From: Enterobacter oligotrophicus
Lineage (GTDB): Bacteria > Pseudomonadota > Gammaproteobacteria > Enterobacterales > Enterobacteriaceae
Reading direction: 5' to 3'
Assembly (NCBI RefSeq): GCF_009176645.1
Contig: NZ_AP019007.1
Span: 3,782,001 to 3,846,000, forward strand
DNA: 64,000 bases
A program made the translations under genes and the position numbers. The notes beneath the pieces are model-generated. The model was given only the letters and a program-made list of their open reading frames with translations. It searched no databases and had not been told where the DNA came from. Positions 17,116 through 23,690 of the stretch are shown here, piece by piece. The stretch's first letter is position 1. Each line of letters opens with the position of its first letter.

Positions 17116-17356
17116 GAAATAGACTACTAAAGGAGATATCGACGATATTTTTGCCACCGCTACGTCATTTATGCCATATGAATATTGACCGGCTGAATAC
17201 TCATTATATGTCATTAAAATGATAGTGAAGTGTTAATATCATGAGTGTAGTTTTTCGGATGGTTGATAATGAACGTAAAACTCATTAAAAGCGCTTTTCT
17301 TTCATTGTCTCGCCTGCCTATACTCGCACCACTTTTTTCAACCTGATGACGCCGAT

Positions 17357-17758
17357 ATGCACGCCAGCTGGACCTATCGCCTGCGCTTCCTTAAAAAACA
17401 TCTGCTGATGTTTTTGGTGGCCTTTGGCTGGCTGTTAATTCAGAGTCAGGTTGCGATTGCGTCGCATGATTGCTCTATCGATCTGCGGGGGGATGTCGCC
17501 GCTATCCAGCATATGGATATGATGGCTAAACCCGGACCGCATAATACAGTGGATGCTTCACCGTTATGTGAAAAACACTGCATGCCGGATCAGGGGCAAA
17601 AAGATCCCGCACAGCCTCAGCTTGTGGCGCTTCCTGCCGCCATAACGCTTACCCTAAACACGCCAGATTGCGACGCAGTTAGCCATTCCGCGTGGACAGT
17701 AACCCCTCCTGCAGCAGGGCCGCCGGCAACGATTCGTTATTGCCGGTTCAGAGAATAA
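17357..17758 (+). CDS. Exported Cys/His/Met-containing protein of unknown function, first gene of the copper efflux operon
   Basis: 133 residues. The N-terminus is basic then hydrophobic (residues about 14-35), ending AIAS, so a signal peptide or anchor is likely. The mature part is rich in potential soft-metal ligands: SHDC, QHMDMM, and a CEKHCMPDQ motif near residue 71-79, then Pro/Ala/Thr-rich sequence with two further Cys. I do not recognise a family. Its position 55 bp before cusF and the ligands suggest a periplasmic copper or silver binding or sensing role; this is inference. The ribosome site is weak (TGATGACG region). An alternative is a DUF2946-like short copper-locus protein. Confidence 0.65.
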   Translation: MHASWTYRLRFLKKHLLMFLVAFGWLLIQSQVAIASHDCSIDLRGDVAAIQHMDMMAKPGPHNTVDASPLCEKHCMPDQGQKDPAQPQLVALPAAITLTLNTPDCDAVSHSAWTVTPPAAGPPATIRYCRFRE

Positions 17759-17813
17759 GAAACCTGTTAATTCGTTAATTTTATTTTCATTTACGTTTAA
17801 CAGGAGTTTTATC

Positions 17814-18107
17814 ATGCGTGCTTTATTCCTTTCCGCGCTGCTTGGCGCGTCCGTCTCTCTTGCTTCCTTTACCGTTCAGGCGGACCAACGCTGGCAAGGC
17901 CACGGTGTGGTTCAGTCTGTTTCTGAAAATTCCGTCATGCTCCAGCACGACGCCATTCCCGAACTGAAATGGCCAGCCATGACGATGCCGTTTACGTTGT
18001 CTCCTGGCGCGGCGCTGAACGGTGCAAAACCCGGCGATGAAGTGACCTTCACGCTTGAGCGTGCGGGTGACGGCTTCCGGATTGTCTCGCTGACGCCACA
18101 GCGCTAA
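17814..18107 (+). CDS. cusF: Periplasmic Cu(I)/Ag(I) metallochaperone CusF
   Basis: 97 residues: signal peptide (about 1-23, TVQA/DQRW) and one small OB-like domain. The metal site of CusF (His, Trp, two Met) is visible as QHD and WPAMTMPFT (W-x2-M-x-M). In E. coli CusF hands Cu(I) or Ag(I) to CusB. An AGGAG site precedes the ATG. It precedes the outer membrane factor gene here, whereas in E. coli the order is cusC-F-B-A. The N-terminal His/Met-rich extension of E. coli CusF is absent. Confidence 0.88.
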   Translation: MRALFLSALLGASVSLASFTVQADQRWQGHGVVQSVSENSVMLQHDAIPELKWPAMTMPFTLSPGAALNGAKPGDEVTFTLERAGDGFRIVSLTPQR

Positions 18108-18118
18108 GCGAGGTCATC

Positions 18119-19375
18119 ATGAAACAACACACACTGAGCCTGTGGCTCGGTGGGGTGCTGTTCGGCCTGTTGAGCTCCGCCGTCCAGGCGGAGCCGTGGA
18201 CGCTCGAACAAACCCTGACCGAAGCCCAGCGCTATTCCGCAGAACTGTCAGCCAGCCGTAACGAGGCGCAGGCGCTGGATGCGATGGCCGATTCTGCTAC
18301 CCAGTTACCGGACCCAAAACTGAAGTTTGGTCTTGAAAACGTGCCAGTGCAGGGCAGTAACGACAGGCGACTGACGCGTGAAGGTATGACCATGCAGAAG
18401 ATTGGCATCATGCAACGCTACGTTAGCGCAGAAAAGCGGGAGCGCAAAGCGCAAACATTTCAGGCGCAGGCGCGCAGCGTGCTGGCGAAATCCGGGGCTA
18501 TTCGCGCTGCACTTCAGCGTGATACCGCCCAGGCCTGGCTGGATCTGGCGCTTGCGCAGCAGGCGCTGAAAACGGCCAGAACGCTGGTCAGCGAAACGGA
18601 ACGTCAGCGCGGCGTACAGACGGCAAGCGTGGGGGCCGGAGGCTCAGCACCGGACAGCGTACTGGCACTGCGGATGACCTTAAGCGCCATGCGCGACAAA
18701 GCAACGCTCGCGCAGCGGGATGTTCAGCTGGCGCAAAGCCGCCTGTTACAGCTGACGGGGCAAGCCATTACGGATGTGCGCGGGCCGTTACCGCGCTATC
18801 AGCGTCTGCCTGCCGATGAAAAAACGCTGGAAGCCGGAATTATTCAACATCCGGAAGTGGAGGCCGCCCGCAGCGAAGCCGAGACCGCGAAAGCCCGTTC
18901 TGCGCAATCAGCCGTGGCGGCCATTCCTGACGTGGATGTGGAGGTCTTTTACGCGCATCGTGCTGAAGGGTATGACGATATGGCCGGTGTGATGTTCAGC
19001 GTGGATCTGCCTCTTTTTCAGTCAAAACGACAGGACAAAGATTATGCCGCCGATGTTTCTCGCTCGATGCAGGCGGTAGACCAGCTGACGCTGATTAAAC
19101 GTGAGCATATTGCCCAGGTACAAACCCTGGTGGCGCAGTATCAGGCCGCGCAGACCTTATGGCAGCGTCAGCGGGATGAAGTGCTGCCTTTACAGCGTCA
19201 GCGGCTGACGGTGCTGACGGCACAGTATCGTTCCGGGCAGTCTGAACTACCGGCGTTACTGGATGCCCGTCGTGGCGTACTGGATACGGAACTGGCAGTT
19301 AATCAGGCCGAGCGTGAGATGGCGCGGACCTGGGCTGCCGTAAACTGGCTGATCCCGCAGGAGCTGGCGCAATGA
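18119..19375 (+). CDS. TolC-family outer membrane factor of the copper/silver efflux system
   Basis: 418 residues: signal peptide (to about 25, SAVQA/EPW), then the two long helical repeats of the OEP/TolC fold with heptad-like Ala/Gln/Arg-rich segments (residues about 95-165 and 330-415). There is no lipobox cysteine, unlike E. coli CusC, a lipoprotein of about 457 residues. It resembles CzcC-type factors of other bacteria. It begins 11 bp after cusF, and its stop overlaps cusB (ATGA). Role: the outer membrane channel of a tripartite RND pump with CusB and CusA. Confidence 0.85.
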   Translation: MKQHTLSLWLGGVLFGLLSSAVQAEPWTLEQTLTEAQRYSAELSASRNEAQALDAMADSATQLPDPKLKFGLENVPVQGSNDRRLTREGMTMQKIGIMQRYVSAEKRERKAQTFQAQARSVLAKSGAIRAALQRDTAQAWLDLALAQQALKTARTLVSETERQRGVQTASVGAGGSAPDSVLALRMTLSAMRDKATLAQRDVQLAQSRLLQLTGQAITDVRGPLPRYQRLPADEKTLEAGIIQHPEVEAARSEAETAKARSAQSAVAAIPDVDVEVFYAHRAEGYDDMAGVMFSVDLPLFQSKRQDKDYAADVSRSMQAVDQLTLIKREHIAQVQTLVAQYQAAQTLWQRQRDEVLPLQRQRLTVLTAQYRSGQSELPALLDARRGVLDTELAVNQAEREMARTWAAVNWLIPQELAQ

Positions 19376-20577
19376 AAACAACAACCTTAACCGCGGTCGC
19401 GGCTGTCGTCATTGTGGCGGCTGGCAGTGGCTATTGGGTGGGGAAAAAACAGTCCCATCAACCAATTGCAGCTTCGCAGCCCTCTGAACGCAATGTGCTG
19501 TACTGGTACGATCCAATGATGCCGGGCCAGCGCTTTGATAAGCCGGGAAAATCGCCTTTTATGGATATGGACCTGGTGCCGCGCTACGCCGATGAAGAGA
19601 AAGCGGCGGCAGGCGTCGGGATTAGCTCTCAGCAGCAGCAAAACCTGGGGATGAAAACAGCTAAAGCGGAAATGCGACAGCTGGTAACACCGTTCACGGC
19701 TTTTGCTTCGGTATCGACGGATGAACGCAGCGTGTCGGTGGTTTCGGCACCGGCCAACGGTGTGGTCTCGAAATTGTTTGTTAAAGCGCCACAGCAGCAG
19801 GTGAAAAAAGGTGAGCCGCTGGCGCAACTGTGGATACCGCAGTGGACGACGGCCCAGCAGGAGTATCTGGCTGTCCGCCAGCTTGGCGATGCCGGGCTGA
19901 CCCGCGCGGCACGTGAGCGGCTGGCTCTGCAGTTTATGCCAGAGGAGGTGATACGTATGCTGGAACGTAGCGGTAAGCCGCAGACCACGCTCACGCTTCG
20001 GGCCGCGCAGGCCGGATATGTGGTGAAACTGGATGTGCGGGAAGGGGCGCAAATTACGGCAACGGCACCGCTCTTTGAAATAGCCACGCTCGATCCCGTC
20101 TGGCTGGTTATCGACTATCCGCAATCCCAGGCGCAGTCTCTGGCGGTGGGGAGCAAAATGGTGGCAACGACCGAAAGCTGGCCCGGAGAGCAATTCCACG
20201 GCACGGTCAGCGAACTGCTGCCACAGATGGAGACGACGACGCGAACGTTGAAAGCGCGCATTGTGCTGGATAATACCGCGCAGAAGCTGAAACCGGGTAT
20301 GTATCTCACCGTCTCCCGAAGCAAAGAACCCACACGTCAACCCGTTCTGGCGGTGCCGGAAGAGGCGGTCATCAATACCGGGGAGTCATCACGCCTGCTA
20401 TTAGCAACAGGAGATGGCTATTTCCGTCCGGTAAACGTGGAAACCGGGCTGACGGCGAAAGGGTGGACGGAGATCCGCTCGGGGCTCAACGCGGGCGATA
20501 ATGTGGTGACTTCCGGCCAGTTCCTGATTGACTCTGAAGCCAGCCTGCGCAGCGTAATGCCGGAGGTGACGCCATGA
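19372..20577 (+). CDS. cusB: Periplasmic adaptor CusB
   Basis: 401 residues with an N-terminal membrane anchor or signal (about 6-22). The N-terminal metal-binding segment of CusB is conserved: [20 protein letters not shown] contains the Met equivalent to E. coli M49 and the FMDM pair (M64, M66). Then come the lipoyl/barrel-sandwich halves ([27 protein letters not shown]) flanking a helical hairpin, and a beta-barrel domain. It links CusA to the outer membrane factor and receives metal from CusF. Overlaps both neighbouring genes by four bases. Confidence 0.92.
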
Positions 20578-23500
20578 TTGCGGCAGTGATTCGGGCTTCA
20601 TTACGCAACCGGCTGCTGGTGATCCTTGCGGCGCTGGTCATGGCGGGCTGGGGCGTGTGGGCGGTACAGCGTGCGCCACTGGACGCGCTTCCTGATTTGT
20701 CGGACGTGCAGGTGATCGTCAAGGCGAGCTATCCCGGTAAAGCGCCACAGGTGATTGAAGATCAGGTGACCTGGCCGCTGACAACGTCGATGTTGTCCGT
20801 GCCGGGAGCAAAAACCGTGCGTGGTTTTTCTATGTTTGGCGATGCGTATATCTACGTACTTTTTGAAGATGGCACCGATCTCTACTGGGCGCGCTCAAGG
20901 GTACTGGAATATTTAAGCCAGGTGCAGGCGCAGTTTCCGGCAGGAGTGAAGGTGTCGCTCGGGCCAGACGCCACGGGCGTAGGCTGGATCTATGAATACG
21001 CCCTGATCGACCGCAGCGGCAAACATAGCCTGGCGGATCTGCGCGCCATTCAGGACTGGACGCTGAAGTTTGAGCTTAAGACGGTCCCTAATGTCTCAGA
21101 AGTGGCGAGCATCGGCGGGATGGTGCGTCAGTATCAGATCGTGGCCGATCCGGCGAAGATGCGGGCGTTAAATATTACCCATAGCCAGCTCGCCAGTGCT
21201 GTTCAGGCCGCAAATAAGGAGAGCGGCGGCGCATTGCTGGAGAGAGGGGAGGCGGAGTATATCGTGCGCACCACGGGCTATTTACGCTCGCTGGATGATT
21301 TTCGCAACGTGGTCATCGCCAGCCGCAATGGCATACCTGTTCTGCTCAACGATGTCGCGACCATCGGCTTCGGTCCGGAGATCCGCCGTGGTGTGGCAGA
21401 ACTGAACGGAGAAGGCGAGGTGGCCGGTGGCGTGGTGGTGATGCGCTACGGACAGAACGCACTGGAGACGATTCATGCGGTGAAAGAGAAGCTGCATGCG
21501 CTGCAGAAAACATTGCCACAGGGCGTTGAGATTGTTCCGGTGTATGACCGCTCAACCCTGATCGAGGAGTCGGTTAAAACGCTTTCCCATAAACTCCTTG
21601 AAGAGTTTGCCGTTGTGGTGGTGGTTTGCGCGCTGTTCCTGTTTCATTTTCGTTCCGCGCTGGTGGCGATAGTCTCTCTGCCGCTGGGTATCCTGGGTGC
21701 CTTCGTCGTGATGCATTATCAGGGTATCAACGCAAACATCATGTCACTCGGCGGAATTGCAATCGCCATCGGGGCGATGGTGGATGCGGCGATCGTGATG
21801 ATTGAAAACATGCACAAAGTGCTGGAGCAGTGGCGGCATGATAACCCAGGTAAAAATCCGTCTTCCGGTGAATACTGGCAGCTGGCCGAGCGTGCGGCGG
21901 TGGAAGTAGGGCCTGCGCTCTTCTGCAGCCTGTTAATCATTACCTTGTCGTTTATTCCTGTGTTCTCGCTTGAAGCGCAGGAAGGGCGAATGTTCTCGCC
22001 GCTGGCGTTTACCAAAACCTGGTCGATGGCCGTTGCCGCAGGGCTTGGGATCACGCTGGTTCCCGTTTTGATGGGTTATTTTATTCGCGGGAAAATCCCG
22101 GATGAGAAGGCTAACCCGATCAACCGCGTGCTGATCCGCCTGTATGAGCCGCTGCTGGATAAAGTGCTCACTTTTCCGAAAACCACGCTCGTGCTGGCGT
22201 TTGCGCTTTTACTCGCGACGTTCTGGCCGTTGAGCCGCCTGGGAAGTGAATTTATGCCCCCGCTGGACGAAGGCGATTTGCTGTATATGCCGTCAACGTT
22301 GCCGGGCATTTCTGCCAGGGAGGCATCACGGCTGCTGCAGCAAACCGACAGGCTTATCAAAAGCGTACCGGAAGTCGCCAGCGTGTTTGGTAAAGCCGGA
22401 CGGGCGGAGTCGGCCACCGATCCTGCGCCATTAACCATGCTGGAAACCACCATTCACTTTAAGCCACGCGACCAGTGGCGGCCGGGAATGACACCCCAAA
22501 AACTGGTGGAGGAGCTGGATAAAACGGTCTCAGTGCCAGGAATTGCGAATGTGTGGGTGCCGCCGATCCGTAACCGTCTGGATATGCTGGCAACCGGGAT
22601 AAAGAGCCCGGTCGGTATTAAGGTGAACGGCAATAATATTGCCGATATTGAGCGGGTAGCTCAGCAGATAGAGCATGTCGTGAAGCAGGTTCCAGGCGTG
22701 ACGTCGGCGCTGGCAGAGCGCCTGACGGGCGGTCGCTATGTGGATATTCGCATCGACAGACAAAAAGCGGCGCGCTATGGCGTATCTGTCGACGAACTGC
22801 AAAGCATGGTCGCCACACTCGTGGGAGGAGATAACATTGGTGAGGTGATCCAGGGGCGCGAACGTTATCCCATCAATCTGCGTTATCCCCGCGATCTGCG
22901 CGATAACGTCGACAAGCTGCGGATCTTACCGGTTATTACCGCGAACGGTAGCCAGGTGGCACTGGGTGAACTGGCCGATATCGTCGTGACTGAAGGCCCG
23001 CCGATGCTTAAAAGTGAAAACGCGCGACTATCCAACTGGATCTATGTGGATTTGCGCGGACGCGATCTGAAATCTGCCGTGGATGAGATGCAGAAGCGGG
23101 TGGCTGAGAACGTGGTTTTACCGCAAGGCGTTTCGCTCTCCTGGTCAGGGCAATTTGAATATCTGGAGCGGGCAACCGCGAAGCTAAAAATAGTGTTGCC
23201 GGTGACGTTAATGATTATATTTATACTGCTCTGGCTGACCTTCAAACGGATTGCTGACGTCTTAATAATAATGGGGACATTACCGTTCGCACTTATTGGC
23301 GGGGTGTGGTTATTGTGGCTTCTTGAATATAACCTCTCCGTGGCGGGGGCGGTAGGATTTATAGCCCTGTCAGGTGTTGCTGCTGAATTCGGTGTAATTA
23401 TGGTTCTCTATCTGAATCATGCGCTGGATAAATATCGTGATCGTGAACCTGAGGGCGGAAATGCCATGCTGATGCGCGCAATCCACGAAGGTGCAGTGCT

Positions 23501-23690
23501 GCGCGTGCGGCCCAAAGTGATGACCGTTGCCACCATTATGGCCGGGTTGCTGCCTGTTATGTGGGGCGGCGGTAGCGGCTCAGAGGTGATGCAGCGCATT
23601 GCTGCCCCAATGATTGGTGGAATGATCACCGCCCCGTTATTGTCGATGTTGGTTATTCCGGCACTCTATAAATTGTTACATCAACGTTAA
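20574..23690 (+). CDS. cusA: Cu(I)/Ag(I) efflux RND transporter CusA
   Basis: 1038 residues (E. coli 1047), HME-RND family, 12 membrane helices in two halves with large periplasmic loops. The three-methionine metal site is complete: Met572 in LLYMPST, Met622 in PLTMLE and Met671 in RLDMLATG, matching E. coli M573, M623 and M672; the neighbouring Glu624 and Lys677 are also kept. This argues for monovalent copper or silver rather than Zn/Co/Ni. Proton-relay segments in TM4 ([16 protein letters not shown]) are intact. Last gene of the operon. No cusRS pair or metal-responsive regulator lies within the window beside it. Confidence 0.94.

Follow-up and report, generated by a model that had tools for sequence, protein, structure and literature searches.

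The cusFCBA copper-efflux operon in the DNA analyzed here, a 64,000-nucleotide stretch of the Enterobacter oligotrophicus genome that we call the window, starts with a small open reading frame, and the locus raises the question of what this first gene does. An earlier note had presented its product as an undescribed exported protein outside any family and had offered three guesses: a copper buffer, an oxidase helper, or a sensor. The sensor is the one that we favor. The small exported protein is probably a leader that senses copper by its unfinished chain rather than a stored copper protein. Judging from the DNA and its relatives, it is likely to be a leader like CutF and SilD, one that acts in cis, senses copper, and controls the translation of cusF and, through cusF, the pump operon.

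The frame has an ATG start and 133 codons on the + strand (17357–17758), and its stop lies 55 nt ahead of the cusF ATG at 17814, as the earlier note had it. The ligand clusters listed there (SHDC, QHMDMM, C71-EKH-C75-MPD, and two later cysteines, C105 and C129) are all present, and the description of an exported (by sequence), copper-ligand-rich protein placed first before the cus genes holds up. At E ≤ 1e-3, 109 of 138 candidates were homologues; among the loci fetched for comparison, the closest named relative is from Enterobacter soli (86%). Compared with 12 close relatives, the whole ORF had a pN/pS of 0.245; by part, the signal peptide gave 0.145 and two linkers 0.30 and 0.35, and the lowest values fell in the CxxHC box (0.089) and the C-terminal 18 codons (0.091). 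The leader ORF is a real gene under purifying selection. Downstream, all on the + strand, lie cusF (17814–18107; Pfam PF11604, CusF_Ec, 5.8e-23), which is the proposed direct target of translational control; the outer-membrane factor gene cusC (18119–19375; PF02321, 7.3e-25); the adaptor gene cusB (19372–20577; HlyD_D23, 2.5e-61, and PRK09783 CusB, 2.6e-92, under that model's cut-off); and the RND permease gene cusA (20574–23690; TIGR00914 CusA/CzcA, 1334 bits, over the cut-off). The divergent upstream neighbor we take, from its position, to be dcuC.

The protein has three conserved parts. A predicted signal peptide spans residues 1–35 (17357–17461, + strand), with a basic and hydrophobic N-terminus up to V-A-I-A-S and an A33-x-A35 cleavage motif at its end; it is supported by the alignment and by the structure model, whose confident part is a helix at residues 3–36. 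After residue 30 the mean pLDDT per 10-residue block is 51–67, and the mature chain has no predicted fold. The metal motif, C71-E-K-H-C75 (17567–17581, + strand), keeps both cysteines in every row of two alignments, one of 43 rows and one of 34. The third part is a terminal module, P117-P118...G-P-P-A-T-I-R-Y-C-R-F-R-E133 (17705–17755, + strand), proposed as the arrest region from its conservation and its rare arginine codons. In the alignment of 34 diverse rows A33, A35, C71, C75, P117, P118, C129, and R132 are invariant and the Met/His stretch is variable. The earlier note's view that the C-terminal part is unstructured fits the model, but this part is among the most conserved stretches of the mature protein.

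Conservation at the terminus was followed through two sets of loci. One consists of the window and 68 fetched loci (69 in all); the fetch patterns included T[IL]R[FY]CRFRE, so the C-terminal invariance in the 68 is partly built in. A profile search gave 71 further loci with the same ending (L071–L141, 19 from a host-family genome search, whose 20th new locus was that of the own genome, and 52 stretches; L139–L141 repeat L075, L076, and L078). Matches in G002, G264, G028, and G051 and a second, weak match in G183 were left out of the fetched loci. P117 is proline in 69/69 loci and P118 in 66/69. Across 140 sequences (115 distinct 3′ ends), every one has Cys at −5 and Arg at −2; 138 end in [FY]CR[FY]RE, one in FCRYRL, and one in FCCFRE. 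CxxHC stands at a nearly fixed distance from the C-terminal end, 58 residues in 102 of 112 distinct sequences (mean 58.04, sd 0.41), and the stretch before it averages 37.1 (sd 4.4); these figures use 112 of the 115 distinct sequences, with L026, L032, and L137 outside the spacing regexes. As read from the alignments, this conserved anatomy is that of a regulatory nascent chain. Shortened or frameshifted homologues (P0072, P0024, P0032, P0037, and P0082) may reflect true variation or errors in sequencing; P0072, from Enterobacter hormaechei, lacks the CxxHC part and keeps both ends.

Codon and stop choice at the terminus are also skewed. In the window R130 is CGG and R132 is AGA. Among the 69 loci R132 is AGA in 36 and one of AGA, AGG, CGG, or CGA in 58, and R130 is one of these four in 47. 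The downstream control genes use AGA for 49 of 4387 arginines and the four rare codons together for 1097 of 4387, and the other arginine codons of the leader are rare in 96 of 246. The stop codon is TAA in the window (17756–17758, + strand); among 115 distinct relatives, 114 have TAA or TAG (TAG 63, TAA 51, TGA 1), and the 69 loci have TAA in 36, TAG in 32, and TGA in 1. Elsewhere TAG ends 1/69 of the next genes, 4/69 cusC genes, 0/69 cusB genes, and 1/58 dcuC genes; cusB, with TGA in 69/69 and an overlap with cusA in the window, was left out as a stop-choice control. The CusC tree requires 12 stop-codon changes, about 11 of them between TAA and TAG because TGA occurs once, and such TAA/TAG-only switching has a binomial probability of 0.003 if both routes are equal, a rough figure. 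The Fisher values for codon and stop bias ignore relatedness. In some gaps the bases of the stop codon pair within the predicted stem described below, which is an alternative reason for the stop bias.

Four nucleotides past the leader stop lies CCTGTTAA (17763–17770, + strand), a putative anti-Shine-Dalgarno arm complementary to TTAACAGG (17797–17804, + strand); the latter, the 3′ arm of the predicted stem, includes the AGG of the cusF Shine-Dalgarno AGGAG (17802–17806). In an alignment of 37 gaps (36 distinct), 88.6% of the cells of this stem pair, compared with 20–48% for slid versions, and 19 cells are changed on both sides of the stem; for each of these two measures 0 of 500 shuffles were as high. 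The covariation includes a U-A pair at columns 13/49, replaced by A-U or G-U in 12 sequences, and a G-C pair at columns 20/43, replaced by A-U in 5. Two of the five stem measures are weaker, namely pairs changed on both sides (4; 13/500 shuffles) and further pair types (7; 298/500 shuffles), and 10, 10, and 14 of 36 sequences lack pairing at columns 9/53, 11/51, and 21/42, respectively. RNAalifold predicted zero consensus pairs on the same 37-row gap alignment. A second lineage has a different stem, CTCCAG with CTGGAG, that is 98.9% paired and almost invariant; covariation says nothing there because this stem hardly varies.

Complementarity tests covered more loci. Complementarity between the Shine-Dalgarno and the first 18 nt past the stop (P ≤ 0.05) is seen in 53/69 loci versus 11/174 control junctions, and with dinucleotide shuffles in 48/69 versus 4/174. 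Only L066 of nine Serratia/Rahnella loci reaches P 0.05 in this duplex test, and L041–L044, L050, and L051 fail it. In 89 of 105 distinct gaps, each folded alone and without a shuffle control, the first 40 nt provide partners, starting 0–5 nt past the stop, for at least three bases of the Shine-Dalgarno; the 105 exclude L111 and L118, in which the pattern found no Shine-Dalgarno, and L125, which lacks a called next gene. Support for the stem from whole-context RNA folding is weak: the Shine-Dalgarno is unpaired with a mean of 0.18 versus 0.22 on average for shuffles and is lower in 44/69 loci, and in the window itself it is less paired (0.35 unpaired versus 0.18). With a ribosome block at the stop the unpaired mean is only 0.31, and it exceeds 0.7 in 0/69 loci. 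Covariation and complementarity thus speak for the Shine-Dalgarno-shielding stem of the CutF mechanism; RNAalifold and whole-context accessibility speak against it. Some loci have long gaps between the leader and cusF (L028, 85 nt; L046 and L087, 128 nt; L130, 189 nt), and both arms are visibly kept in those of L028 and L046/L087.

We asked which family the protein belongs to. Pfam and NCBIfam at E ≤ 1 returned no family, only a chance-like TrbL_5 row (E 0.24), and PADLOC and PDB sequence searches gave no match; to this extent the claim of a protein without a family stands. It falls for the published CutF-like group, to which the literature on CutF-like and arrest peptides led us (PMC9973294, PMC8456105, PMC9426467, PMC12992588, and PMC10987492). 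In PMC9973294, CutF-like proteins were filtered for a length of <150 aa, a signal peptide, a PP among the 15 last residues, and a gene close downstream. The leader has 133 aa; a basic start, hydrophobic helix, and invariant A33-x-A35 from sequence, alignment, and model; P122-P123 within residues 119–133; and cusF at 55 nt. It also has the CxxxC metal motif of the group as C71EKHC75 (PMC8456105), and the genes downstream of CutF-like proteins are most frequently OEP/CusC and include CusF (PMC9973294). SilD of Cupriavidus metallidurans pMOL30 is a labelled node of the CutF-like network according to a figure legend (PMC9973294), and the leader aligns with it by profile (hhalign probability 95.8, E 6.8e-9). 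Because the leader passes the published CutF-like filters and aligns with SilD, "undescribed, family-less" is not supported; the leader fits, by its sequence features, the published CutF-like leader proteins, of which R. capsulatus CutF and C. metallidurans SilD are examples.

The leader shares several features with CutF of Rhodobacter capsulatus, encoded by cutFOG (PMC9973294 and PMC8456105): a small Sec-signal protein with a proline-containing C-terminus, encoded by the first gene of a copper operon, with a CxxHC of the same spacing (C69XXH72C73) and a stem shielding the Shine-Dalgarno of the next gene. The two differ at the end: in CutF, which finishes in PEPEGPPPRL, only a few codons separate PP from the stop, whereas the leader has PP and GPP about 15 and about 11 codons from the stop, followed by ATIRYCRFRE. 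The target also differs, a multicopper oxidase for CutF and, as predicted, cusF/RND efflux for the leader. SilD has CQAHC, a Pro-rich stretch, and the ending HCCFRI (C-x-F-R-x), with C-C-F-R-I in register with the leader's C-R-F-R-E, then a TAG stop. Its gene, in the silD operon at 163914–170418 of pMOL30 (sil was not found at 100000–140000), precedes TolC-family, adaptor, and RND permease genes, with a predicted stem of −32.3 kcal/mol in the gap to the next gene. SilD differs in having 62 residues (by eye) from CxxHC to the end, versus 58, and an outer-membrane factor gene next, not cusF. A literature search on SilD/CusD turned up no study of how SilD works. In another family of the host class, a leader (L144; match E 3.9e-8) ends in HHCRFLI, and the gene after it reads like a CusC-type outer-membrane factor.

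Many homologues are named "DUF2946 domain-containing protein" in source databases, and the earlier note had proposed a DUF2946 check. The leader has no match to DUF2946 (Pfam PF11162) at E ≤ 1 and does not reach the gathering cut-off of 23.7 bits. Matches at E ≤ 1 occur in 2 of 34 diverse family members, weak ones (best E 0.26), and in a comparison with 8 further homologues one was colinear (11.3 bits, E 0.59). CruR, the DUF2946 protein of Bordetella pertussis, shares with the leader an export signal, a position as upstream ORF of a copper operon, and a Cys motif about 45 residues ahead of xxPP (PMC9426467); the leader has 44 between C75 and A120. CruR differs in its CXXC and RAPP and in an import operon turned off by Rho termination (PMC9426467); the leader has CxxHC, no RAPP, and a short-gap stem. 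The leader thus has CxxxC in place of the CXXC of DUF2946/CruR and, in the window, AGPP in place of a C-terminal RAPP or RGPP, with T, A, V, or I at the Arg position of RAPP in 67/69 loci. RAPP/RGPP arrest peptides (PMC12992588) and SecM/TnaC (PMC9973294) are likewise small and secreted, have constrained C-termini, and lie upstream of regulated genes. The Arg of RAPP/RGPP is absent from the leader, and AGPP serves as a comparison motif in PMC12992588. The constraint on the leader extends to the stop codon, more like termination arrest as in TnaC (PMC9973294).

The leader is tied to the head of the operon. The cus genes directly follow it in 68/68 fetched relatives and in the window. The co-occurrence with cusF that the earlier note had proposed checking is found in that a CusF-like gene usually comes first, but it is incomplete, with cusC or a DUF411 gene there in some loci. 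The leader lies directly before cusC in L060/L074 (same gap sequence) and in L108; in L131–L133 a DUF411 gene takes the place of the cus operon (L131 tested, 2e-28; L132 and L133 called by similar sequence), and the leader keeps FCRFRE and TAG but lacks GPP. Since leaders also precede cusC or DUF411, they accompany the operon head, not CusF. We considered L044 as an operon without cusF whose stem had moved to cusC and rejected it; its stem remains opposite the beginning of a truncated cusF remnant, which leaves L060/L074 and L108 as the only leaders directly before cusC. In 18/68 loci (L018, L023, L027, L030, and others) the top CusF-like match sits between cusB and cusA; by eye, these have an additional CusF-like gene after the leader. 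Among 295 host-family genomes, 73 have a leader match, 70 a cusC match (1e-60), and 68 both; the leader matches in G028 and G051 hold stops. Matches were found in 4 of 369 host-class genomes, including the own genome and G526, the latter by 23 residues only, and in 2 of 72,556 plasmid records, from Enterobacter hormaechei and Serratia proteamaculans. The leader at CP103578.1 393343–393741 is on a 517-kb Enterobacter hormaechei plasmid record and has 82% identity. Complete E. coli genomes gave no near leader match.

These features suggest how the leader could work. The signal peptide would thread the chain co-translationally through SecYEG, as for CutF. As the ribosome comes to the last codons, the CxxHC would just be reaching the periplasm, where it could bind copper or silver. 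Metal binding would then slow the ribosome at PP...FCRFRE-stop, with the rare arginine codons and the RF1-readable stop as possible aids. A held ribosome would cover the anti-Shine-Dalgarno arm and so free the cusF Shine-Dalgarno. Without copper, by analogy with CutF, the ribosome would terminate and leave, the stem would re-form, little CusF would be made, and the exported leader would be degraded.

Distances bear on where a pause would have to be. A ribosome would cover an arm 7 nt away and not one 40 nt away. With the stop codon in the A site the anti-Shine-Dalgarno is 7 nt away; from the Pro123 codon it is 40 nt. For a pause to act by opening the stem, it must therefore sit at the last codons, where the sequence, codon, and stop constraints lie, and GPP arrest as the stem opener was rejected on this distance. 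Tunnel and membrane together take up about 47 residues (PMC9973294); the 58 residues from CxxHC exceed this, and the motif would therefore just enter the periplasm. A counterpoint is that 44 residues intervene between CxxHC and GPP, one short of CruR, which would favor arrest at GPP. The two could be reconciled if GPP and PP were to govern the pace and the terminus were to hold the ribosome. In the presence of the stem-loop, CutF depends on its CxxxC, its C-terminus, and its Sec signal (PMC9973294).

Other explanations must account for the same constraints. Plain translational coupling, in which translation of the leader to its stop always opens the stem and neither the Cys motif nor export serves as a sensor in cusF control, gains from the anti-Shine-Dalgarno arm adjoining the stop, which is what simple coupling needs. 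It leaves unexplained the conserved CxxHC, the near-fixed length, the terminal FCRFRE, the rare codons, and the signal peptidase motif, and we judge it unlikely. Nascent-chain arrest might instead act, as for CruR, on Rho-dependent transcription termination and not on the cusF Shine-Dalgarno. The near-equal spacing from the Cys motif to GPP or RAPP (44 versus 45 residues) fits this, as does a moderately C-rich stretch in the 3′ half of the leader ORF (C 0.33–0.36, G 0.23–0.28, windows starting 17585–17661). The leader, however, lacks the Arg of RAPP and has CxxxC, not CXXC, and CruR represses an import operon across a 162-nt gap (PMC9426467), whereas the leader's 55-nt gap holds the Shine-Dalgarno stem; such termination control is very unlikely here.

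A mature periplasmic copper buffer, chaperone, or pump accessory acting in trans would make sense of the signal peptide, the Cys/His/Met ligands, and the copper-efflux neighbors, including cusF. The leader has no CusF_Ec domain match of the kind expected of a CusF-type periplasmic copper protein, the model gives the mature domain no fold, and the Met/His stretch is variable. A stable buffer or an oxidase helper, two of the three guesses, is further disfavored by the near-fixed CxxHC-to-end length, by the constraint on C-terminus, codons, and stop alike, and by the adjoining anti-Shine-Dalgarno arm. CutF, for its part, was undetectable in vivo and had no action in trans (PMC9973294). We regard a role in trans as highly improbable and keep to the copper-sensing leader acting in cis.

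How the operon is transcribed may be read in part from the upstream region. A CpxR-like direct repeat, GTAAA-N5-TTAAA (17275–17289, + strand), is a putative activator site; it forms a conserved block in a 21-sequence upstream alignment, its strict regex matches 30/69 loci versus 0.5% of shuffled upstream regions, and we take it to resemble the CpxR consensus. A putative −10 element, TATACT (17319–17324, + strand), stands 38 nt ahead of the leader start codon; TATA[CA]T occurs at most 70 nt upstream in 63/69 loci, with offsets of 36–39 nt in the first 20 printed, and a sigma-70 consensus scan did not report the window's copy. From the conservation of these two elements, envelope stress may therefore set transcription of the leader operon. 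In the own genome (G000; 4.48 Mb, single contig), none of 36 matches passed the TIGR01387 cut-off (CusR/CopR/SilR response regulator), though cusFCBA is present, and none of 27 passed that of TIGR01386 (CusS/CopS/SilS kinase); in the controls 1/14 genomes passed each cut-off.

The same genome has a second copper leader, of the CruR type, at C1:1284235–1284573 (L152:1477–1881, − strand). It is a canonical DUF2946 protein (67.8 bits) with CGYC, RAPP near its end, and the C-terminus TRAPPRRSAFSL; by eye, the gene after it seems to encode a membrane protein of the PepSY type. This DUF2946 leader does not align end to end with the leader family. A weak second match to the leader itself (C1:1300754, E 0.23) lies in DNA that is phage-like by eye.

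The kind of leader described here is already known; its terminal FCRFRE-stop module, which lacks RAPP and lies about 11 codons past GPP, seems to be a new variation on it. A partial literature search found no study of the enterobacterial leader, the terminal module, or the stem. We consider it possible, though on balance doubtful, that Enterobacterales hold a distinct class of metal-controlled arrest peptides ending in PP...FCRFRE-stop, in which copper or silver bound by the chain at SecYEG would stop the ribosome at termination, with its RF1-readable stop and rare terminal Arg codons, and not at a RAPP core, and that the C-x-F-R/L-x ending shared with SilD and with the leader from another family marks a common translational switch for RND copper/silver pumps, here replacing the missing CusRS. 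The locus offers a compact case, 133 codons and a 55-nt gap, in which the arrest site, metal dependence, and stem opening can be probed one by one in vitro. If the proposal is true, the terminal FCRFRE-stop module would be set apart from the RAPP class, and the nascent chain controlling a copper/silver efflux operon would itself sense metal in the periplasm, without an intermediary, in a genome without a CusRS-type pair over the model cut-offs.
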